Assembly: GCA_022072255.1 (NCBI GenBank)
Contig: JAJVHZ010000046.1
Span: forward strand, 1 to 39,371
DNA: 39,371 nt
Reading direction: 5' to 3'
Source of the DNA: Gammaproteobacteria bacterium
GTDB taxonomy: Bacteria; Pseudomonadota; Gammaproteobacteria; JAJPIJ01
A program made the translations under genes and the position numbers. Shown piece after piece: positions 28,218 through 39,371 of this stretch. Each line of letters begins with the position of its first letter. The first letter of the stretch is position 1. Below the pieces are notes generated by a model. The model ran no database searches. It saw nothing but the letters and a program-made list of their open reading frames with translations, and was not told the origin of the DNA.

Positions 28218-28246
28218 GCGCCGGTTGCCGTAACGACAGCCGGCGC
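28218..28246. terminator. Hairpin between convergent diheme cytochrome and fixH genes
   Basis: 7-bp stem GCGCCGG/CCGGCGC with a 15-nt loop in the convergent gap; its distal arm touches the fixH stop codon. On the plus strand it is followed by TATTTCCC, a very short T-run. Possible weak bidirectional terminator. Confidence 0.4.
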
Positions 28247-28731
28247 TATTTCCCGTGCAGGCCGACGGTGAAGGTCTCCAGCACCCGCCAGTCGCCGGAT
28301 TCGATCTGCATGTACCAGTGGCCGGGGGGCAGCTCCGGCAGGGCGGCGAAGTACGCGCCGCCGGCGGCGCGCTCGAGCACGACATCGCGATCGAAGCCGG
28401 CGCGGGTCGAGTGCATCAGCCGCGCGCGCAGCGAGGCCGGCAGGGCGCCCGCGTCGCGGGCGTGCATCCGCACGGTGGCGGTGCGGGCGGCCGGATCGAC
28501 CTCGACGTCCGCACTGATGGCCAGCGAGGCGGCGCGCTCGTCGCGCTCCAGCACGCGATTTATCTCCAGACCCTTCCTGTAATAATCGTCGGTGACCAGT
28601 CCGTCGTCGGAGACGATGGCCAGGCGCAGCGTGTAGAAGCCGGCGACCACGGCCGCGGCGGGCAACAGAGCCACCAGCCAGGCATAGGGTTCCCGGTACC
28701 AGCGCGTCACGGTCGTATCCTTCTGCTGCAT
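28246..28731 (-). CDS. ccoH: FixH/CcoH family cbb3 oxidase assembly protein
   Basis: A 161-residue single-pass membrane protein. A cytoplasmic N-terminus ends WYREPYAWLV, followed by the helix LLPAAAVVAGFYTLRLAI and the conserved periplasmic start DDGLVTDDYYRKGLEINRVL, which is the FixH signature. The remaining ~110 residues are an Ig-like beta domain ending PPGHWYMQIESGDWRVLETF. FixH/CcoH is needed for cbb3 oxidase assembly or stability. It lies 4 nt after ccoG and is the last gene of the cco run. No ccoI (copper ATPase) or ccoS gene follows, although both often do. Confidence 0.92.
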   Translation of the reverse strand: MQQKDTTVTRWYREPYAWLVALLPAAAVVAGFYTLRLAIVSDDGLVTDDYYRKGLEINRVLERDERAASLAISADVEVDPAARTATVRMHARDAGALPASLRARLMHSTRAGFDRDVVLERAAGGAYFAALPELPPGHWYMQIESGDWRVLETFTVGLHGK

Positions 28732-28735
28732 GGCT

Positions 28736-30193
28736 CTATCGCTGCGGCGACGGTCCGAGGAAGCGGGCTTCCGCCTCGTCGTGCAGCTCCGGCTTGTCGG
28801 CCGCCGTAATCCGGAATGTGACCTTCGAACTGCGATGCTCCAGGTCGTCCTCCGCGGCGCGCAGGCGCACCACCACGCTCTGCACCGCCCCGGCCTCCAC
28901 GCCGATGCGCCCGGACTCCATGTCCAGCTGCAGGCCGTCGATGCCGTCCGCGCTGACGGTGAAGGTGTGGCCGGCGTTGTCCATGTTGATGATGTTCAGG
29001 GTATAGACGTTCTCGATGAGGCCTTCGTTGGTCTCGCGGAAGAGCTGGTTGCGATCGCGGACGACATCCAGTTCCAGCGGCACGCGAACGGCCACGGCGT
29101 AGACGAGGGCGGCGATGATGCCGAGAAGGATCGCCCCGTAGATGTAGATCCTGGGCCGCAGGATCTGCGTGGGCTCCCCCGCAAGCGCGTTCTGGGTGGT
29201 GTAGCGGATGAGGCCCGGGGCGTAGCCCATCCTGTCCATGACGTCGTTGCAGACATCGATGCAGGCGGCGCAGCCTATGCATTCGTACTGCAGGCCATGG
29301 CGTATGTCGATGCCGGTGGGGCAGACCTGAACGCACATGGTGCAGTCGATACAGTCGCCCAGCCCCTCGCGCAGGGCGTCGATCCCGCGTTTGCGCGCAC
29401 CGCGCGGCTCGCCGCGTTTCTCGTCGTAGGAGATGGTGAGCGTGTCGCCGTCGTACATGGCGCTCTGGAAGCGCGCATAGGGGCACATGTACATGCAGAC
29501 CTGCTCGCGCAGGAAACCGGCGTTGCCCCAGGTGGCGAAGCTGTAGAACAGCATCCAGAAGGTCTCCCAGGGGCCGAGATCGAAGGTGATCAGCCGCTGG
29601 TAGAGATCCCTCGCCGGCGTGAAGTAGGCGACGAACGTGAAGCCGGTGAACAGTGCGAACGCCACCCACAGGAAATGCTTGATGAACTTGATGCGGAACT
29701 TGCGCGCCGACATCGGCGCGCGATCCAGTTTCATCTGCTGCAGGCGGTCGCCCTCTATCCAGTGCTCGATCCAGAGGAAGGTCTCCGTCCACACCGTCTG
29801 CGGGCAGGCGAATCCGCACCACAGGCGTCCGGCCAGGGCGGTGAAGAAGAACAGGCTCAGGCCCGCGATGATGAGCAGGGCGGCGAGGAAGATGAAATCC
29901 TGCGGCCACAGCGTCAGCCCGAAGAGGTAGAACTTGCGCGCCGGCATGTCCAGCAATACCGCCTGCCGGCCGTCCCAGGTGAGCCAGGGCAGCACGTAAT
30001 AGATACCGAGCAGCAGGAACACCGTGGCGACCCGCAGGCCGGCGAACAGGCCGTGCACCTCGCGCGGATAGATCTTCTGCCGCTTTTCGTAGAGTGACTG
30101 CTGGACCTCGTCGACTGAAACCGCTGCCGTGGGTTTCAACTGTCCGTCGTCAAGAGGCTTGTTCACGGCTCGGGGTACTCGCGGCGGGCGCAT
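28736..30193 (-). CDS. ccoG: Cytochrome cbb3 oxidase accessory ferredoxin-type protein
   Basis: A 485-residue membrane protein of the FixG/CcoG family. It has the N-terminal family motif LYEKRQKIYPREVHGLFA, several helices, a conserved CGFACPQTVW motif, and two 4Fe-4S motifs (CIDCTMCVQVCPTG and CIGCAACIDVCND). A C-terminal Ig-like domain follows (NIINMDNAGHTFTVSADG). CcoG reduces Cu(II) to Cu(I) during CuB insertion in Rhodobacter. ATG 30193 is used. It overlaps the upstream small membrane gene by 44 nt; an in-frame GTG at 30166 (VNKPLDDG) would reduce the overlap to 17 nt and fits the family's usual N-terminus as well. No strong ribosome-binding site decides it. Confidence 0.94.
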   Translation of the reverse strand: MRPPRVPRAVNKPLDDGQLKPTAAVSVDEVQQSLYEKRQKIYPREVHGLFAGLRVATVFLLLGIYYVLPWLTWDGRQAVLLDMPARKFYLFGLTLWPQDFIFLAALLIIAGLSLFFFTALAGRLWCGFACPQTVWTETFLWIEHWIEGDRLQQMKLDRAPMSARKFRIKFIKHFLWVAFALFTGFTFVAYFTPARDLYQRLITFDLGPWETFWMLFYSFATWGNAGFLREQVCMYMCPYARFQSAMYDGDTLTISYDEKRGEPRGARKRGIDALREGLGDCIDCTMCVQVCPTGIDIRHGLQYECIGCAACIDVCNDVMDRMGYAPGLIRYTTQNALAGEPTQILRPRIYIYGAILLGIIAALVYAVAVRVPLELDVVRDRNQLFRETNEGLIENVYTLNIINMDNAGHTFTVSADGIDGLQLDMESGRIGVEAGAVQSVVVRLRAAEDDLEHRSSKVTFRITAADKPELHDEAEARFLGPSPQR

Positions 30194-30458
30194 CCACGTC
30201 GCGCCGTCGTGGGTATAGGAAGAACAGACACAGCATGCCGGACGAGGCGGTCAGCAGCCAGAACAGGAAGAATCCCACCGTGTAGGCTGCAATGCGGCTG
30301 ACCTCGGGGAAATCCACGCAGGCCCTCAGCTCCATCGGATCGATGGCGGCGAAAAACACCATGGTCGCCACGCCGGCCATCAGGAAGGTGAGCCACAGCG
30401 TCGCCAGCAGCCGATACGGCCCCGGCACATAGCCAATCTCTTCCATCACCGGTTTCAT
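30150..30458 (-). CDS. Small two-helix membrane protein between ccoP and ccoG
   Basis: A 102-residue protein with two strong hydrophobic segments (LATLWLTFLMAGVATMVFFA and TVGFFLFWLLTASSGMLCLF) separated by a short loop (DPMELRACVDFPEVSRIA) that carries one Cys, and a charged tail (YPRRRDVDAPAAST). I do not recognise a named family. Its 3' end overlaps ccoG, and it is 172 nt downstream of ccoP on the same strand, so it is part of the cco transcript or of a second unit with ccoG and fixH. Inference: an assembly factor or accessory subunit of the cbb3 oxidase. ATG 30458 has a GGA about 9 nt upstream. Confidence 0.8.
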   Translation of the reverse strand: MKPVMEEIGYVPGPYRLLATLWLTFLMAGVATMVFFAAIDPMELRACVDFPEVSRIAAYTVGFFLFWLLTASSGMLCLFFLYPRRRDVDAPAASTPSREQAS

Positions 30459-30630: not shown

Positions 30631-31566
30631 TCAGGGACTTGCCGTCTGGGCGCCGCCCTGGTGCGTCAGGCTGTAGACGTACGCTGCGAGCAGATGCACC
30701 TTGGCCTCGCCCAGGAACTCCTTGTGCGCGGGCATGCGACCCTGGCGGCCGCCGGCGATCGTCTCGCGCACGCGCTCCTGAGAGCCTCCATACAACCAGA
30801 CGTCGTCGGTGAGATTCGCCGCACCCAGCGCCGGGTTGCCCTTGCCGTCCGGACCATGGCAGGCGACGCAGTTCTGCGTGAACACCTCCTTGCCGCGTGC
30901 AGCCACCGCCGCGTCGACCGGTCGGCCGCTCAGGCCGAGGACGTACTCGGCCACCTCGTTGACCTTCTCCTTGCCGAGCAGCTCGCCCCAGGGCGGCATG
31001 ACGCCCTGGCGGCCGTTGAGGATGGTTTCCTGGATCTGATCCGGTGCGCCTCCCCACAGCCAGTCGCCGTCGGCCAGGTTCGGGTAGCCGCGTGCGCCGC
31101 GCGCATCCGCGCCGTGACACTGGATGCAGTAGGTCGCGAACAGGCGCTTGCCGACCGTGATCGCCTCGGGATTCGCAGCCAGCGCAGGGATGTCCTGCCC
31201 GGCGAATTTCTGGAAGATGGGGCCGTACCTGGCGTCCGCGGCCGCGATCTCCGCGTCGTACTGCCTGTACTGCGTCCACTTCTTCAGGCCTTCGAACACC
31301 GGCAGGCCGGGGTAGAAGACCAGGAACACCGCGCCCCACGCCACGGTGAGATAGAACATGTTGAGCCACCAGCGCGGCAGCGGGTTGTTGTATTCCTCGA
31401 GATCCCCGTCCCAGACGTGGCCCATGGTCTCGACCTTCTGCCCGGCGGAACGCCCGGAGTAGCGCCATGCGAAATAGCCGCACCACAGCACGCCGATCAC
31501 CGAGGGCACGGTGATGAACCACTTCCAGAACTCGGAAGTAAAATCGAAACCGCTTAAATCAGGCAT
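30631..31566 (-). CDS. ccoP: Cytochrome cbb3 oxidase diheme c subunit III
   Basis: A 311-residue subunit. Two N-terminal membrane helices (WFITVPSVIGVLWCGYFAW and LNMFYLTVAWGAVFLVFY) flank the conserved motif HVWDGDLEEYNNPLPRWW. Two cytochrome c domains follow, with haem motifs CIQCH and CVACH. Their probable axial methionines are in QGVMPPWGELL and QGRMPAHKEFL. The subunit carries electrons from soluble cytochromes c to CcoO. I start at ATG 31566 (MPDLSGFD), which is 2 nt after the ccoQ stop; the longer frame upstream is ccoQ's shadow. The length is normal for CcoP. Confidence 0.96.
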   Translation of the reverse strand: MPDLSGFDFTSEFWKWFITVPSVIGVLWCGYFAWRYSGRSAGQKVETMGHVWDGDLEEYNNPLPRWWLNMFYLTVAWGAVFLVFYPGLPVFEGLKKWTQYRQYDAEIAAADARYGPIFQKFAGQDIPALAANPEAITVGKRLFATYCIQCHGADARGARGYPNLADGDWLWGGAPDQIQETILNGRQGVMPPWGELLGKEKVNEVAEYVLGLSGRPVDAAVAARGKEVFTQNCVACHGPDGKGNPALGAANLTDDVWLYGGSQERVRETIAGGRQGRMPAHKEFLGEAKVHLLAAYVYSLTHQGGAQTASP

Positions 31567-31744
31567 TGTTCTTCTCCTTGCCGGGCGTCGCACTCGCGGG
31601 CGGCGCGTCGTCGTCGTCGAGCGGGATGCGGGCGGCGGCATCGAAGCGGGCCTTGCTGCGGGAATCATAGGCCCACAGCACGATGCCCACGAAGATGACC
31701 AGCACCGCGACGGTGAATACGGAGTGTATGGTCGAGAAGTCCAT
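31559..31744 (-). CDS. ccoQ: Cytochrome cbb3 oxidase subunit CcoQ
   Basis: A 61-residue protein with a single membrane helix (TIHSVFTVAVLVIFVGIVLW) followed by AYDSRSKARFDAAARIPLDD, the usual CcoQ pattern, and a charged tail. I start at ATG 31744 rather than the in-frame GTG 31753 because an almost perfect Shine-Dalgarno (GGAGGTGA) sits 5 nt upstream of the ATG and contains the ccoO stop codon. Its 3' end overlaps the start of ccoP by 8 nt. CcoQ stabilises the oxidase complex. Confidence 0.9.
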   Translation of the reverse strand: MDFSTIHSVFTVAVLVIFVGIVLWAYDSRSKARFDAAARIPLDDDDAPPASATPGKEKNNA

Positions 31745-31749
31745 GGCCG

Positions 31750-32364
31750 TCACCTCCGGGTCTTCACCGCCGTGCCCAGCGATTGCAGGTAGGCGATGAG
31801 GGCGTCCATCTCGGTCTTGCCTTCCAGCCCGGTCTTCGCGGCGGCGAAATCCTCATCGGTGTAGGGATGACCGAACGCGTCCTTCAGCACCGTCATCTTC
31901 CTGACCACGAGCTGCGGATCGACCTTCGCGTCGGCCAGCCACGGGTAGCCCGGCATGATCGATTCCGGGACCACGTCGCGCGGGTTGGTCAGGTGAGCGC
32001 GATGCCAATCATCGGAATAGCGCCCGCCGACCCGCTGCAGGTCGGGCCCGGTGCGCTTGGAGCCCCACTGGAACGGGCGGTCGTAGACGAACTCCCCGGC
32101 CAGCGAATAGTGACCGTAACGCTCCGTCTCCGCGCGGAAGGGGCGGATCATCTGCGAGTGGCACAGATAGCAGCCCTCGCGGACATAGACGTCGCGCCCG
32201 GCGAGCTCGAGGCCGGAGTACGGCTTCAGGCCCTGCACCGGCTCGGTGGTGGAGTGCATGAAGAACAGCGGCACGATCTGCACCAGGCCGCCTATGCTGA
32301 CTGTAAAGATAATCAGCGCGATCATCAGGCCGATGTTCTTCTCGATTTTTTCATGAGCAATCAT
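31750..32364 (-). CDS. ccoO: Cytochrome cbb3 oxidase monoheme c subunit II
   Basis: A 204-residue subunit. One N-terminal membrane helix ([19 protein letters not shown]) anchors it; the periplasmic domain has the haem motif CYLCH in [17 protein letters not shown] and the very conserved stretch [20 protein letters not shown]. The axial Met is probably in [11 protein letters not shown]. It receives electrons from CcoP and passes them to the haem b of CcoN. It lies 15 nt downstream of ccoN. The length is normal. Confidence 0.97.
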
Positions 32365-32379
32365 GATTCGCCAGTCTCC

Positions 32380-33801
32380 TCAGTGCGCCATCGACGGGGC
32401 CAGCACGGGCGCTTCCACCGGTTTGGCGCCCGCTATGGTGCGCCACAGGTTGTAGGTCATCACCAGCATCCCGGCCAGGAACAGCGCGCCGCCGAGGAAG
32501 CGGATGACATAGAACGGATGCATCGCCTCGACCGTCTCGATGAAGCTGTAGGTGAGCGTGCCGTCATCGTTGACCGCGCGCCACATCAGGCCCTGCATGA
32601 TGCCGGATACCCACATCGAGGCTATGTACAGCACGATGCCGATGGTGGAGGTCCAGAAGTGCAGCTCGACCAGCTTCAGGCTGTACAGCTCGCGGCCGAA
32701 CAGGCGCGGGATGAGGTAGTACATGCAGCCCATGGTCACCAGGGCGACCCAGCCGAGCGCGCCGGAGTGCACGTGGCCGATGGTCCAGTCCGTGTAATGC
32801 GACAGCGCATTGACGGTGCGGATGGACATCATCGGACCCTCGAACGTCGACATGCCGTAGAACGACACCGACACGATCATCAGGCGCATCACCGGGTCGG
32901 TGCGCAGTTTGTGCCAGGCCCCGGACAGGGTCATGATGCCGTTGATCATGCCGCCCCAGGAAGGCGCGAGCAGAATGACCGACATCACCATGCCGAGCGA
33001 CTGCGTCCAGCCCGGCAGCGCGGAATAGTGCAGGTGATGCGGGCCGGCCCAGATGTAGGTGAAGATGAGCGCCCAGAAGTGGACGATCGAGAGGCGGTAG
33101 GAGTACACGGGCCGGCCGGCCTGCTTGGGGATGAAGTAGTACATCATTCCGAGGAACGCGGCGGTCAGGAAGAAGCCCACGGCGTTGTGGCCGTACCACC
33201 ACTGCACCATCGCATCCTGCACGCCGGCATAAGCCGAGTAGGACTTCAACAGCGTTACCGGCACGACGGCGTTGTTGAAGATGTGCAGCATGGCGATGGT
33301 GATGATGTAGGCGCCGAAGAACCAGTTGGCGACGTAGATGTGCTGGACCTTGCGCTTCACTATGGTGCCGAAAAAGACGATGGCATAGGAAATCCACACC
33401 ACCGCGATCAGCAGATCGACGGGCCATTCGAGCTCCGCGTACTCCTTGGACTGCGTGATGCCCAGGGGCAGGGTGACCGCCGCCAGCACGATGACCAGCT
33501 GCCATCCCCAGAAGGTGAAGGCGGCGAGCCTGTCGGAGATGAGCCGCACGTGGCAGGTACGCTGCACCACGTAGTACGAAGTCGCAAACAGGGCGCAGCC
33601 GCCGAAGGCGAAGATGACGGCGTTGGTGTGCAGCGGCCGCAGCCGGCCGAAGGTGAGCCAGGGCAGGTCGAAGTTCAGCGCCGGCCAGGCGAGTTGCGCG
33701 GCGATGAACACGCCCACCAGCATGCCGACGATCCCCCAGACGATCGTCATGATGGCGAACTGCCGCACCACCGTGTAGTTGTAGGTTTCGTTAGTGGCCA
33801 T
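32380..33801 (-). CDS. ccoN: Cytochrome cbb3 oxidase catalytic subunit I
   Basis: A 473-residue haem-copper oxidase of the C family with about 12 helices. Haem and CuB ligands are visible in [41 protein letters not shown] and [12 protein letters not shown]. The tyrosine that is cross-linked to a CuB histidine in this family is in [11 protein letters not shown], and the conserved Glu is in [15 protein letters not shown]. It reduces oxygen with high affinity and pumps protons. ATG 33801 follows AGGAGGG. It heads ccoNOQP; a strong hairpin lies between it and the upstream outer-membrane gene. Confidence 0.98.
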
Positions 33802-33844
33802 TCGGCCCTCCTGTGATCAGATAGCTAGCTCTTCGAGCACAGCG

Positions 33845-33876
33845 GGACAGGGGCGGCATCGCTGCCGCCCCTGTCC
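33845..33876 (-). other. Perfect 14-bp hairpin between the barrel-protein gene and ccoN
   Basis: GGACAGGGGCGGCA (33845-33858) pairs without mismatch with TGCCGCCCCTGTCC (33863-33876) across a TCGC tetraloop. It lies 34 nt after the outer-membrane gene and 43 nt before ccoN on the minus strand. No T-run follows in either direction, so it may be an attenuator, a 3' end stabiliser or a processing site rather than a full terminator. Confidence 0.6.
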
Positions 33877-33910
33877 GTGCAACTCCGCCCGAATCGTAAC
33901 GCGGTCGGCG

Positions 33911-34885
33911 TCAGAAGCCGATACCCAGGTAGCCGCCGATGGTCCAGTAGTCGTTGGACGGCTCCTGCACCTGCAGCCCCAGGCCGCGGATCGCCGCGAC
34001 GGTGGCGTCGCTGTAGTCGGGATTCGTGAAGTCGGCGGCGAAGTGATAGCGCGCATCGGCGCCGAGCTTGATGCCCGGGATGAGCTCGTACTCGGCGCCG
34101 GCGGCCACCTGGCCGCCGACGTCGAGGTAGGAGGTGGTGTCGGAGGTCGGGCTGATGACGCGGAAATCCAGGCCGATCGGGATGAGCCAGGGACGCAGCT
34201 TGCTGCCCTCCATGAACTTGATCTTCGGCGCGGCGCTGACCGTCAGCATGGTCAGGTTGTTGGTGCCGGTGATGAGACAGTTGCCGAGCGCCGGACCGAC
34301 GTTGCCGGTGGCCAGGGCGCACTCCGCCGTCGGCACCGGCAGTATCGTCTCCGCGGAATCGATGTGGCTGAATTCCACGCCCAGCTCGGCGAGCGCCCAG
34401 GTGCCGGGCATCAGTCCCCACACGTCCGGCGTGAGCAGGAAGTCGAAGCCGGCGCCGACGTTCCAGCCGGAGTCGCCGTCGTTATCGTTGCCCAGACCGT
34501 AGACGTCCGTGACGGCGCCGAAGGCGCGGTCATCCATCAGGCCGGTGTAGCCGCCGCGGAAGAAGATCATGTTGCCGGTCCGCGTGGCCGGATGACGCGT
34601 GAAGTACGGCGAGCCCTTGGTCTCCATGTCCGACACCCTTTGCTCGAGATTCTGCACCGGCGCCTCGACGGCGTCGACGCGCGTCTCGAGCTGCTGCACC
34701 TGCTGCGTCTGCGCGGGCTCTGCGGCCTGCGTGGCCTTCAGTTCCTGGCGCAGCGCGGCCATCTCGGCCTCGAGCTGCATGAGTTTCCTTTCCAGGTCCG
34801 CGGTGGACACGGCCCCTGCCGTCGTGCTTGCCGCAATCAGCGCGGATGCGACGGCCATGGTCAGCGTGTTCTTTTTGAATTGCAT
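33911..34885 (-). CDS. Outer-membrane beta-barrel protein with N-terminal coiled coil
   Basis: A 324-residue exported protein. The signal peptide (LTMAVASALIAASTTAGAVS) is followed by a predicted coiled coil with heptads (LERKLMQLEAEMAALRQELK, then VQQLETRVDAVEAPVQNLEQ), then a series of alternating beta strands with aromatic girdles, ending YWTIGGYLGIGF. A terminal Phe is the usual signal for outer-membrane barrel insertion. An extracellular-loop-like segment holds two cysteines (AECALATG and LGNCLITG). I start at ATG 34885 because AAGGGGG lies just before it; the in-frame ATG at 34900 has none. A coiled coil plus a small barrel recalls porins that trimerise, but the function is not known. 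Its position just upstream of ccoN suggests co-expression. Confidence 0.8.
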   Translation of the reverse strand: MQFKKNTLTMAVASALIAASTTAGAVSTADLERKLMQLEAEMAALRQELKATQAAEPAQTQQVQQLETRVDAVEAPVQNLEQRVSDMETKGSPYFTRHPATRTGNMIFFRGGYTGLMDDRAFGAVTDVYGLGNDNDGDSGWNVGAGFDFLLTPDVWGLMPGTWALAELGVEFSHIDSAETILPVPTAECALATGNVGPALGNCLITGTNNLTMLTVSAAPKIKFMEGSKLRPWLIPIGLDFRVISPTSDTTSYLDVGGQVAAGAEYELIPGIKLGADARYHFAADFTNPDYSDATVAAIRGLGLQVQEPSNDYWTIGGYLGIGF

Positions 34886-34958
34886 GAGAGCCCCCTTCAT
34901 GGTTGCGAATGTTTACGTCGAATTTCAGCTGGGTGTCGAGGAGATCGGAAACCGGCAA

Positions 34959-35357
34959 TCAATGGTCCGCCGCATCCCGCTCCGGCGCCGCCGGGGGGAC
35001 GGGAACGACGGGCTTGATCGCGTTCAACGGGGCGTCGTTCCGGCAGAAGCTCAGGTCGACCTGCGGGGCGCGCGAGCCGAGAGCCTTTTCGCAGACGGCG
35101 GTCTCGCCGCAGCCCTCGCAGGCGCGGATATGCCTTTCTATGTCGACGACCGGGTGGCGGTGCAGATATTCCTGCGCGTCGATGCCCCGGCGCTCGAGCA
35201 TCCGGTACAGGCGCAGCCGCTTGACGCGCCCGCCGAGGGCCTTGCGGAACTGGCGGCCGGTGTGAAAGTTGGTGAGGATGGCGTAGGTCATCCGGGAGGC
35301 GACGTATGCCGCCAGCAGGGCGATGGCGGCGATGACGACGACGCTCAATACGTTCAT
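34959..35357 (-). CDS. Single-pass membrane protein, DUF6455-like
   Basis: A 132-residue protein with one N-terminal membrane helix (VLSVVVIAAIALLAAYVASR) and a cytoplasmic domain. The domain has the pattern RMLERRGIDAQEYLHRHPVV, then a cysteine cluster CEGCGETAVCEKAL, and a later Cys in DLSFCRNDAPL. This resembles DUF6455-type proteins (helix, MLERLG-like motif, CxxC...C). The four cysteines could bind a metal or act in redox sensing; that is inference. It is divergent from nrdJa and precedes the barrel gene by 73 nt. ATG 35357 is used; the longer open frame upstream lacks a start signal and would run through the FNR-like and NrdR-like sites. Confidence 0.72.
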   Translation of the reverse strand: MNVLSVVVIAAIALLAAYVASRMTYAILTNFHTGRQFRKALGGRVKRLRLYRMLERRGIDAQEYLHRHPVVDIERHIRACEGCGETAVCEKALGSRAPQVDLSFCRNDAPLNAIKPVVPVPPAAPERDAADH

Positions 35358-35401
35358 ATCGGATGAGGCCCGGGCTTCTTGGAGTTTTTTCCTTGGCCGC
35401 A

Positions 35402-35443
35402 ACTGTATGCAGCGGGGGTGCCGAGCGGCTTGATCTGGATCAA
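35402..35443 (-). promoter_or_regulatory. FNR/ANR box with a correctly placed -10 on the minus strand
   Basis: TTGATCTGGATCAA (35430-35443) is a perfect match to TTGAT-N4-ATCAA. If it is centred at -41.5 of a minus-strand promoter, the -10 hexamer falls at 35402-35407 and reads TACAGT (4 of 6 to TATAAT). In the plus direction the equivalent hexamer is CGGCCG, so a class II promoter is favoured only towards the DUF6455/barrel/cco genes. Its transcript would start near 35395, 38 nt before the DUF6455-like start. An effect on nrdJa (112 nt away) is still possible. Confidence 0.65.
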
Positions 35444-35508
35444 CGCCGGCCGGGCGGTGAATTTGCGGCCGGCCACAGGCGACTTGCGTGCAGGCCGCAA
35501 TCGTCGCA

Positions 35509-35532
35509 GGATGCACAAAATATTGCGCATCC
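35509..35532 (+). promoter_or_regulatory. NrdR-box-like palindrome upstream of nrdJa
   Basis: A 24-nt near-perfect palindrome (20 of 24 positions symmetric) with core CACAAAATATTGCG. The core CAAAATATTG agrees with 9 of 10 positions of the NrdR-box core CWATATATWG. It ends 22 nt before the nrdJa ATG, where a bound repressor would block initiation. NrdR usually binds two boxes about 31 nt apart; I do not see a convincing second copy. Confidence 0.55.
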
Positions 35533-35554
35533 CGGGGGAGACGGACGCAACGCC

Positions 35555-37702
35555 ATGAGCACCGCCGCCGACGCACTCACTGAAGACACCCGCATCGTGG
35601 CCCAGCCCGCCGCGCTGGACATCTGGGACAAGAAATACCGGCTCAAGGACCGGCAGGGAGTCGCCGTCGACAAGAACGTCGACGACACCTGGCGGCGGAT
35701 CGCCCGCGCGCTGGCCGAGGTGGAGGCGACCCCGGCGCTGCGGGAGAAATGGTACGAGCGGTTCCTGTGGGCGCTGCGTCATGGCGCGATCCCGGCCGGA
35801 CGGATCACCTCCAACGCCGGGGCCGAACAGTACAAGCCCTCCACGTCGACCATCAACTGTACGGTATCCGGGACCATCCACGACTCCATGGATGACATCC
35901 TGTGCAAGGTCCACGAGGCGGGTCTTACACTCAAGGCGGGTTGCGGGATCGGCTACGACTTCTCGACGCTGCGCCCCAGGGGCGCCTACGTGACCGGCGC
36001 CGGGGCGCACACCTCCGGTCCGTTGTCGTTCATGGACATCTACGACCGCATGTGCTTCACGGTCTCATCCGCCGGCGGCCGGCGCGGCGCGCAGATGGCG
36101 ACCTTCGACATCGGCCATCCCGACGTGCTCGACTTCATACGCGCCAAGCGCGAGCACGGGCGCCTGCGCCAGTTCAACCTGTCGCTGCTCATCACCGATG
36201 CCTTCATGCGCGCCGTGAAGGAGGACGCCGAGTGGCCGCTCGCGTTTCCGCTGACGGAGGCGGAGGTCAGGGGCGAGCGCATCGACGTGCACGACAGCCG
36301 CGACGTCCTGTGGCGGGAATGGCCGGTCAGCGACAACTACGTCGTCGACGCCCGCGGCCTGGTGGCCTGCCGCATCCACCGCCGCATACGGGCCCGGGCG
36401 CTGTGGGACCTGATCATGCGGTCCACCTTCGACTATGCCGAGCCGGGGTTCATCCTCATCGACCGGGTCAACGAGGAGAACAACAACTGGTTCTGCGAGG
36501 ACATCCGCGCGACCAACCCGTGCGGCGAACAGCCGCTGCCGCCGTACGGCTCCTGCCTGCTCGGCTCGGTGAACCTGACGCGCTTCGTGCGCGATCCGTT
36601 CACCGACAAGGCGAGCTTCGACTGGCCGCAGTATCGCGAGCTGGTCAAGGTGTTCACACGCATGCTCGACAACGTCGTGGAGCTGCACGGGCTGCCGCTC
36701 GAGCCACAGGCCGAGGAGATCCGGCGCAAGCGCCGGCACGGCATGGGCTACCTCGGCCTGGGCTCCACGCTGGCCATGCTGCGGATGAAATACGGGGACG
36801 CCGACTCGCTGGCGTTCACCGAACGGGTCACGCGCGAGATGGCGGCGGCCGGCTGGGAGGTCGGTGTGGAACTGGCCGAGGAGAAGGGTCCGGCTCCGAT
36901 CATGAACGAGCATTTCGCCATCACCGCCGCGATGCTGCGGCAGCGGCCCGAGCTGGCGCGCGACGGCTACCGGGAGGGCGACAGTCTGCCGGGCCGTGTC
37001 CTGCACGCACGCTACAGCCGCTACATGCAGCGGCTCGCGGGCGTTGCGCCCGAGCTGGTCGACAGGATCGCGCAGGCCGGGGCGCGCTTCACGCACCACA
37101 CCTCCATCGCGCCCACCGGGACCATCTCCCTGTCGCTGGCGAACAATGCCAGCAACGGCATCGAGCCGAGCTTTGCCCATCACTACGTGCGCAACGTGAT
37201 CCGCGCCGGCAAGAAGAGCAAGGACACGCTCGACGTGTATTCCTACGAGCTGCTCGCCTACCGCGCGCTGGTCAATCCCAGGGCGATGCCCGACAGCGGC
37301 GAGCCGGACGCGCAGTTGCCGCCGTATTTCGTCACGGCCAACGACATCACGCCCATGCAGCACGTGGAGATCCAGGCGGCGGCGCAGAAATGGGTCGATT
37401 CCTCGATCTCCAAGACCGCGAACGTGCCCACGGACTTCCCGTTCGCGGACTTCAAGGACATCTATCTCTTCGCCTACGAGAACGGGCTGAAGGGATGCAC
37501 GACCTTCCGTTTCAATCCCGAGGTCTTCCAGGGCGTGCTGGTGAAGACCGCCGATCTCGAGAACACGCTCTACCGCTTCGTGCTCGAGGACGGCAGCGTG
37601 GTGGAGGCGCGCGGCAACGAGGAGGTCGAATACGACGGCGAGACGCACACCGCCGCCAATCTCCACGACGCCCTGAAGGAAGGCTATTACGGCAGATTCT
37701 GA
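35555..37702 (+). CDS. nrdJa: Adenosylcobalamin-dependent ribonucleotide reductase, catalytic component (split class II)
   Basis: A 715-residue class II ribonucleotide reductase. Cys102 (TINCTVSGT) and Cys334 (GSCLLGSVNL) correspond to the redox-active pair. Cys323 in the finger loop TNPCGEQPLP, with Asn321 and Glu325, is the thiyl-radical site. The phosphate-binding region HHTSIAPTGTISLSLANNAS is present. The protein ends EGYYGRF, before the TSCPD and Cys-rich tail of full-length NrdJ, which is encoded separately by the next gene. It makes deoxyribonucleotides using adenosylcobalamin and needs no oxygen. Start ATG 35555 gives the usual N-terminus; GGGGGAG lies 14 nt upstream, rather far. The open frame from 35363 crosses regulatory sites and is not used. 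I see no B12 riboswitch upstream. Confidence 0.95.
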   Translation: MSTAADALTEDTRIVAQPAALDIWDKKYRLKDRQGVAVDKNVDDTWRRIARALAEVEATPALREKWYERFLWALRHGAIPAGRITSNAGAEQYKPSTSTINCTVSGTIHDSMDDILCKVHEAGLTLKAGCGIGYDFSTLRPRGAYVTGAGAHTSGPLSFMDIYDRMCFTVSSAGGRRGAQMATFDIGHPDVLDFIRAKREHGRLRQFNLSLLITDAFMRAVKEDAEWPLAFPLTEAEVRGERIDVHDSRDVLWREWPVSDNYVVDARGLVACRIHRRIRARALWDLIMRSTFDYAEPGFILIDRVNEENNNWFCEDIRATNPCGEQPLPPYGSCLLGSVNLTRFVRDPFTDKASFDWPQYRELVKVFTRMLDNVVELHGLPLEPQAEEIRRKRRHGMGYLGLGSTLAMLRMKYGDADSLAFTERVTREMAAAGWEVGVELAEEKGPAPIMNEHFAITAAMLRQRPELARDGYREGDSLPGRVLHARYSRYMQRLAGVAPELVDRIAQAGARFTHHTSIAPTGTISLSLANNASNGIEPSFAHHYVRNVIRAGKKSKDTLDVYSYELLAYRALVNPRAMPDSGEPDAQLPPYFVTANDITPMQHVEIQAAAQKWVDSSISKTANVPTDFPFADFKDIYLFAYENGLKGCTTFRFNPEVFQGVLVKTADLENTLYRFVLEDGSVVEARGNEEVEYDGETHTAANLHDALKEGYYGRF

Positions 37703-37711
37703 GCAAGCATC

Positions 37712-38410
37712 ATGGCCAAGAAGATCGACAAGCGGATCATCGACGTGAGCGTGGTGAAGAACGCGCTGCCGGCGGAGCCGGCCAGGGCGGAGGCCGCGGC
37801 CGAATCGGCGCCGAAGGTCGTGCACATGCACGAGAAGGTCGCGAGGCCGGAGATGCTGATCGGCTCGACCTACAAGATCAAGACGCCGCATTCCGACCAC
37901 GCGCTGTACGTCACCATCAACGACATCGTGCTCAACCCCGGCACGCCGCACGAGCTGCGGCGCCCGTTCGAGATGTTCGTCAACTCCAAGAGCATGGAGC
38001 ACTTCCAGTGGATCGTGGCGCTGACGCGTATCATCTCCGCCGTGTTCCGCAAGGGCGGGGACGTCACCTTCCTGGTCGAGGAGATGCGCTCGGTCTTCGA
38101 TCCGAAGGGCGGCTATTTCAAGAAGGGCGGGCGCTTCATCCCGTCGCTGGTGGCGGAGATCGGCGACGTGCTGGACAGCCACCTGCGCATGATCGGATTG
38201 CTGCGCGACGACCCGAGCGACGCGGCGCTGCGCCAGCAGCTCGTCGCCAAGCGCGCCGAGTACGAGAAGACGCTGCAGCAGGCCGAGGCCCACGCCCCGG
38301 ACGAATTCCCCGACGGCGCCGTGCTCTGCCAGAAGTGCCTGACCAAGGCGATGATCCGCATGGACAACTGCCTGACCTGCCTGAACTGCGGCGAGTCCAA
38401 ATGCGGCTGA
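37712..38410 (+). CDS. nrdJb: NrdJ C-terminal component with TSCPD domain and Cys-rich tail
   Basis: A 232-residue protein matching the second half of split class II reductases (NrdJb in Pseudomonas aeruginosa). After a variable basic N-terminus comes a TSCPD domain starting MLIGSTYKIKTPHSDHALYV and containing RPFEMFVNSKSMEHFQWIV. The C-terminal 27 residues carry six cysteines (CQKC, NCLTC, NC, SKC), the swinging redox tail that re-reduces the active-site disulfide or a zinc site. It begins 9 nt after the nrdJa stop and is surely co-transcribed. It is needed with NrdJa for activity in Pseudomonas. Confidence 0.92.
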   Translation: MAKKIDKRIIDVSVVKNALPAEPARAEAAAESAPKVVHMHEKVARPEMLIGSTYKIKTPHSDHALYVTINDIVLNPGTPHELRRPFEMFVNSKSMEHFQWIVALTRIISAVFRKGGDVTFLVEEMRSVFDPKGGYFKKGGRFIPSLVAEIGDVLDSHLRMIGLLRDDPSDAALRQQLVAKRAEYEKTLQQAEAHAPDEFPDGAVLCQKCLTKAMIRMDNCLTCLNCGESKCG

Positions 38411-38450
38411 GCCGCGCGTGGTAGTAATTCCGCCGGCCCCGCCGCCGGGC

Positions 38451-38840
38451 TCAGAGCTCGCCGGTGAGGAACTGCGCGCGGCCGTAGCCGAACGACCAGT
38501 CCTCATCCGTCGAGGTGACGAGGTTGATCATGACGTCCGAGGGCGCGATGCCGCAGCGCTTCTCGATCTCCTCCACGACCAGGCGGTAGAAGAGCTCCTT
38601 CATCTCGCGCGTGCGCGGCCGCGTGGTCACCTGGATGAAGACGAACCTCGGCGTGCGCGGTATGTCCAGCCCCGTGTCCTCCATGATCATGCGCGTGGCC
38701 GGGTGCCGATGGACGATCTGGTAGCGATCGCGCTCCGGTACCTTGAAGGCCGTCACCATGGCGCGATGCACGGCGTCGAGCATGGTCTTCACCTCGGCAT
38801 CGGACCAGCCATCGTAGATATCGAACCTGAGTAACGGCAT
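38451..38840 (-). CDS. Tautomerase-family protein
   Basis: A 129-residue protein of the tautomerase superfamily (Tautomerase_2 type). After the initiator Met, Pro is residue 2 (MPLLRFDIYDG), the catalytic base of the family. The segment SDAEVKTMLDAVHRAMVTAF and the conserved RDRYQIVHRH are also characteristic, as is FVFIQVTTRPRTREMKELFY. The physiological substrate is unknown; family members act on 2-oxo-dienoates or dehalogenate small acids. ATG 38840 has GAGGA about 10 nt upstream; the longer open frame would bury the catalytic Pro, so it is rejected. It converges with nrdJb, 40 nt apart. Confidence 0.9.
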   Translation of the reverse strand: MPLLRFDIYDGWSDAEVKTMLDAVHRAMVTAFKVPERDRYQIVHRHPATRMIMEDTGLDIPRTPRFVFIQVTTRPRTREMKELFYRLVVEEIEKRCGIAPSDVMINLVTSTDEDWSFGYGRAQFLTGEL

Positions 38841-39028
38841 GGGTGCCTGTCCTCGTTGCTGCAATGTCCGGCGGCTCTGCGGAAGTCGCCCCGGGCGGGC
38901 TCGCCTGGCGCGTCGCCCCGGTTGGAGGCGGTGCGCCGCGGTCGGGATGGCTAGCGTAATACAAGCCGCGACGGCTTGCGACTTCCCAGCCCGCACCCTT
39001 TGGAATCCGCAGACGTCATCAGCCGGGC

Positions 39029-39061
39029 AAAAAAACCGCGGGCAGGTTTCCCTGCCCGCGG
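39029..39061 (-). terminator. Rho-independent terminator of the cytochrome-c-peroxidase-like gene
   Basis: On the minus strand: an 11-bp perfect stem CCGCGGGCAGG/CCTGCCCGCGG with a GAAA loop, followed directly by seven T residues. It lies 26 nt downstream of the stop at 39088. This is the clearest intrinsic terminator in the window. Confidence 0.92.
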
Positions 39062-39087
39062 CGTGGTACGAACAGACGATACGGCGC

Positions 39088-39371
39088 CTACGGGAGAACG
39101 ACCTTCGGTCCGCCGAGGCGGCCCTGCATGCCCGGGGCGAAGAAATCGCCGCCATTGGGCAGGCACAGGCCGGAGCTCTTGGCGTACCCGGCGGCGCCGA
39201 CGGCCGGCAGCAGGAAGGCGAGGTCATCGGCCTTCTTGTCCCGGTTCCTGTCCATGGCGAGGTGGCCGTTGCGCAGCGTCAGCGACGGGTGATCGAAGGG
39301 TCCCGCGTCGCACTGCACGCGCGGATCGGTCATCGTCAGCATGAACGCCACGATCGCGCCGATCTGGTCGA
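39088..39371 (-). CDS. Cytochrome-c-peroxidase-like protein, C-terminal end only
   Basis: The reading frame is open to the right edge, so this is the last 94 residues of a longer gene. The segments IGAIVAFMLTMTDPRV, AGPFDHPSLTLRNGH and RDKKADDLAFLLPAVGAAGY correspond to the C-terminal region of diheme cytochrome c peroxidase/MauG-type proteins, where a helix ending in LTDPRV is followed by FDHP and a Pro/Gly-rich tail. No haem motif lies in the visible part. A short GTG-initiated version (from 39351) would be incomplete and is not preferred. It is followed by a strong terminator. Confidence 0.7.
   Translation of the reverse strand, partial: DQIGAIVAFMLTMTDPRVQCDAGPFDHPSLTLRNGHLAMDRNRDKKADDLAFLLPAVGAAGYAKSSGLCLPNGGDFFAPGMQGRLGGPKVVLP

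Follow-up and report, generated by a model that had tools for sequence, protein, structure and literature searches.

A palindromic FNR-type box between a DUF6455 gene and a divergent nrdJ-type gene of a gammaproteobacterium very probably belongs to a class II FNR-dependent promoter that faces the minus strand. From this promoter, FNR would activate DUF6455, a gene for a beta-barrel-like protein and the cbb3 oxidase (cco) genes at low oxygen. The observed facts are the box, its spacing to a -10-like hexamer, its conservation, its recurrence before DUF6455 genes and the presence of a gene for an FNR-like regulator. We infer that FNR rather than a DNR-like protein binds, that binding activates transcription, where exactly the transcript starts and that it reads through into cco. 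The relevant features of the window, which is the whole stretch of 39,371 nt analysed here, are:

28246..28731, minus strand: FixH-like gene, a tentative name based on its position
28736..30193, minus strand: ccoG
30150..30458, minus strand: small ORF between ccoP and ccoG, conserved (conserved gene order)
30631..31668, minus strand: ccoP
31750..32364, minus strand: ccoO
32380..33801, minus strand: ccoN, encoding subunit I of the cbb3 oxidase, with a COX1 domain
33845..33876, minus strand: strong hairpin without a T tail in the gap between the barrel gene and ccoN (folding)
33911..34885, minus strand: gene for a beta-barrel-like protein, which scores below the cut-off of the outer-membrane barrel model OMP_b-brl
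34959..35357, minus strand: DUF6455 gene, first gene of the cluster, encoding 132 aa with four invariant cysteines (PF20056 match)
35407-35402, minus strand: -10-like hexamer TACAGT, at a gap of 22 nt from the box
35430..35443, minus strand (read toward it): palindromic FNR-type box TTGATCCAGATCAA (pattern match, family recurrence, sister-species alignment)
35555..37702, plus strand: nrdJ-type ribonucleotide reductase gene on the divergent side, followed by another gene and unlikely to be a target of the box

A consensus box and its -10-like hexamer

A pattern scan of the window places TTGATCTGGATCAA at 35430-35443 with 0 mismatches to TTGATNNNNATCAA, and no other site in the window matches this pattern perfectly. 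The preliminary description had proposed a full-consensus FNR/ANR box, and these exact coordinates bear it out. Base composition predicts ~0.002 perfect boxes per window and 0.19 per genome by chance; the genome (4.27 Mb in 128 contigs) holds four, and the reversed pattern, used as a control, has none. The other three perfect boxes lack a good hexamer at a gap of 22 nt. Another perfect box (L018, around 3345) is located between a molybdopterin-oxidoreductase-like gene and a radical-SAM-like gene pair, named by eye. A one-mismatch FNR-like site within the DUF6455 gene (35014-35027) was rejected as a candidate because a -10 at 22 nt is missing and the site does not recur in the sister species G003; it is probably a chance product of the coding sequence.

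TACAGT matches TATAAT at 4/6 positions and is a weak -10. With the box set at -41.5, simple arithmetic puts the predicted +1 near 35395 on the minus strand, the same figure as in the preliminary description. Relative to this predicted start, the gap to TACAGT and the conservation fit a class II FNR site near -41.5. Toward the plus strand, gap 22 is occupied by CGGCCG, with 0/6 matches to TATAAT, in agreement with the earlier claim that a -10-like hexamer exists only toward the minus strand. A scan of 33780-35700 for plain sigma-70 promoter-like sites gave no match.

Of 23 E. coli promoters that FNR activates directly and whose start is known, 19 have their site at -41.5 within 4 nt (excerpts of PMC3688515). 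The class II promoters of dmsABC, narGHJI and nirBDC, with TTGATNNNNATCAA near -41.5, a -10 and no good -35, resemble the arrangement predicted here; the target genes differ.

Conservation of this layout is seen in G003, a member of the same genus that keeps the whole block, including nrdJ. Aligning the two species shows the 14-nt box and CTGCATACAGT unchanged, TACAGT being identical in both. Drift has affected the spacer and the sequence that borders the box on its nrdJ side; next to nrdJ, another block is conserved. Beside nrdJ lies an imperfect palindrome, GGATGCACAAAATATTGCGCATCC (35509-35532), unchanged in the sister species, which we take to bear a vague resemblance to an NrdR box; a search of the window with the NrdR consensus, allowing up to 3 mismatches, returned nothing. 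An nrdR gene exists in the genome.

The box and its spacing recur before DUF6455 genes

The DUF6455 protein was found at 35 places, spread over 32 of the 369 gammaproteobacterial genomes searched. Alignments served to estimate the start codons, and 300 bp upstream of each place (less for L033) were scanned. Perfect boxes occur at 12/35 places but in 0/285 control segments, taken from elsewhere in the same loci. When one mismatch is allowed, 16/35 places have a box, against 9/285 controls with a one-mismatch site; at the remaining 19 of 35 loci, no box within one mismatch was found in the 300 bp upstream.

We aligned the 16 loci on their boxes and counted -10-like hexamers, defined by A2, T6 and at least 4/6 matches to TATAAT. 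Such a hexamer is present at gap 22 in 12/16 loci, while every other gap from 8 to 39 yields 0-2, and gap 22 in the reverse direction yields 0/16. A second sample covered the phylum. DUF6455 was found in 29/398 genomes, and 30 of the 44 places were examined, one of them the window's own. A box lies within 300 bp at 22/29 of the non-own loci, and 15/22 boxed loci have A2 and T6 at gap 22, compared with a mean of 1.2 per gap. Within 440 bp the count rises to 23/29, or to 22/28 if the box that L116 shares with L092 on the same contig is counted once, and 6/149 controls have a box. Our P-values take no account of relatedness, and we place no weight on them. In this sample (L087-L116), DUF6455 genes often stand in tandem, with 2-4 copies per genome and FNR-like boxes upstream.

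The box follows DUF6455 and cco

DUF6455 precedes cco genes in five genomes: the window's own, G003, G001 (same family), and G122 and G237 (other families). All five loci have one perfect box before DUF6455 and none near ccoN. Between DUF6455 and cco, G001 encodes a relative of the barrel protein and G122 a different ORF of 241 aa. At G237, the hexamer at gap 22 (ATAATA) fits poorly, with 1/6 matches. A second DUF6455 copy in G001 (L017:5314-8616) has a perfect box and heads a CoxB/CtaD (aa3-type) oxidase operon.

Among the five cco-linked genomes, nrdJ is the divergent neighbour only in the window's genus. In G001, G122 and G237, the divergent gene instead encodes a metal P-type ATPase, which was assigned in G122 and G001 by matches to heavy-metal and copper models and in G237 from its sequence; these ATPases presumably resemble CcoI. 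The perfect box is retained in all three genomes. Its retention next to a P-type ATPase gene and the box-free state of the other interpretable nrdJ loci (see below) argue that the box follows DUF6455/cco. Several comparisons support the minus-strand orientation assigned in the preliminary description: the -10 spacing is conserved, the box recurs upstream of DUF6455 homologues, and it persists where nrdJ is not the neighbour.

Proposed transcription of the barrel and cco genes

On the minus strand, no terminator-like site was found between DUF6455 and ccoN. Together with the lack of a second box at ccoN and the conserved gene order, this makes it a reasonable inference from the sequence that the box controls the barrel gene and cco as well. 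The hairpin at 33845-33876 has a 14-bp perfect stem, the folding z-score of the barrel-ccoN gap is -3.4, and the hairpin is partly retained in G003. It is perhaps an RNA stability or processing element and could lower read-through into ccoN. An Rfam search of 32000-39371 gave no match. The genome has a second ccoN (G000:C19:34195-35604), 60% identical to that of the window.

As expected for an FNR target, 10 of 27 interpretable ccoN loci have a box within one mismatch directly upstream (30 loci were listed; L153, L165 and L166 were left out as their flanks end at a contig end). The ccoN genes preceded by DUF6455 (own, G122, G001) have no box directly upstream, and apart from the one ahead of DUF6455, no strong candidate was seen in these three genomes. 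An FNR-type box controls the cbb3 operon in Rhodobacter and Pseudomonas (excerpts of PMC4634722, PMC2908626 and PMC6588701). According to these excerpts, ccoNOQP under FnrL or Anr is likewise preceded by such a box; there, however, it lies near ccoN itself (100 bp upstream in R. capsulatus), whereas here it lies ~1.6 kb upstream of ccoN, before DUF6455 and the barrel gene.

In the proposed mechanism, FNR carrying its iron-sulphur cluster would dimerise as oxygen falls, and the dimer would bind 35430-35443 at about -41.5. FNR would then bring in sigma-70 polymerase at TACAGT, the weak -10. Starting near 35395, the transcript would cover DUF6455 and the barrel gene and would then probably extend over ccoNO(Q)P, the small ORF, ccoG and the FixH-like gene.

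Alternative readings

The box could be a chance palindrome without function: at up to one mismatch, the genome contains 114 sites for the pattern and 15 for its reverse, so near-matches by themselves prove little. The probability of this explanation is close to negligible, as the box in the window is conserved across species at a fixed distance from the -10 and recurs before the same gene family. It is also improbable that the box acts both ways and also, or mainly, activates nrdJ, an influence that the preliminary description had raised cautiously and that our comparison of nrdJ loci does not support. Precedents exist. In P. aeruginosa, nrdJ is Anr/Dnr-dependent; its upstream region holds a similar box, which has its centre at -84 relative to the start codon and was tested by mutation (excerpts of PMC4860495). 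Single boxes serve two promoters in Dinoroseobacter (excerpts of PMC5398030). The box in the window is centred ~118 bp before nrdJ, where a class I position is possible. However, in contrast to the P. aeruginosa box as excerpted, it faces the other gene and has no equivalent at other nrdJ loci. Class II geometry is lacking toward nrdJ, with CGGCCG at gap 22. From a longer list we took 30 nrdJ loci, set the window's own aside and dropped L129, whose flank ends at a contig end; none of the 28 interpretable others carries a box with at most one mismatch in the 300 bp upstream, so that among the 30 loci listed only the window's own has one. We therefore rejected a bidirectional role at nrdJ as the main reading. 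The P-type ATPase neighbours in three genomes, where the box is retained, and the lack of any other interpretable boxed nrdJ locus argue that the switch belongs to DUF6455/cco.

The same promoter and geometry might also be read, instead of or besides FNR, by a DNR/NnrR-like Crp/Fnr protein responding to nitric oxide, a reading to which we assign a small but appreciable likelihood. The Crp-type helix-turn-helix model has ten hits in the genome, some of which are not true Crp/Fnr proteins. One, L001, has C-x2-C-x5-C near its N-terminus, a VETVSR helix and a further cysteine that lines up with one in a solved FNR. It thus combines an N-terminal cysteine cluster, a fourth cysteine and an E..SR recognition helix, which we take to be the features that mark FNR. 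Its closest solved relative is FNR (5cvr), and its best model is the NCBIfam FNR model NF008365, which it matches at 195.7 bits, under the cut-off of 228. In L003 and L004, the N-terminal cysteine cluster is missing and the helices are of the E..SR type (PESYSR and PETLSR); L006 is FNR-like, also without the cluster, and has a similar helix. These similar helices, as well as the boxes that Anr and Dnr share in P. aeruginosa (excerpts of PMC4860495), favour a DNR-like reader. On the other hand, the cbb3 oxidase serves a low-oxygen function, and the four one-mismatch sites that flank L004 carry G/C at the inner base (TTGAC/GTCAA forms), which sets them apart from the box in the window. Specificity for FNR or for a DNR-like protein cannot be told from sequence.

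DUF6455 as a possible member of FNR-type regulons

The DUF6455 product scores 31.9 bits against PF20056, above the cut-off of 23.7. C80, C83, C89, C105 and N107 are invariant among the 24 class sequences aligned, out of the 35 places. The predicted structure is poor (mean pLDDT 57.3, pTM 0.30). DUF6455 adjoins hemN in L074, with FNR-like genes near, and ubiU/ubiV in L068.

A search of the available papers returned one passing table entry for DUF6455 and none for PF20056. FnrL studies list unnamed hypothetical targets (excerpts of PMC4634722, PMC4263372 and PMC2908626), which may include DUF6455. The link between this family and FNR may therefore be new, a point that we put forward only tentatively given those unnamed targets.

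The FNR-type switch and FNR control of cbb3 genes are textbook knowledge; the recurrent boxes before DUF6455 are less expected. The frequent FNR-type promoter of fixed geometry and the oxidase, haem and quinone neighbours hint at a role for DUF6455 in low-oxygen respiration. We tentatively suggest, as a possibility with somewhat less than even chances, that DUF6455 is a widespread unnamed member of Pseudomonadota FNR-type regulons: a small C-x2-C-x5-C...C protein, probably membrane-anchored in the window's class, that is made when oxygen falls and serves terminal oxidases or cofactor supply. If so, DUF6455 would act in oxidase assembly or oxygen feedback, in a metal-, haem- or redox-binding role.
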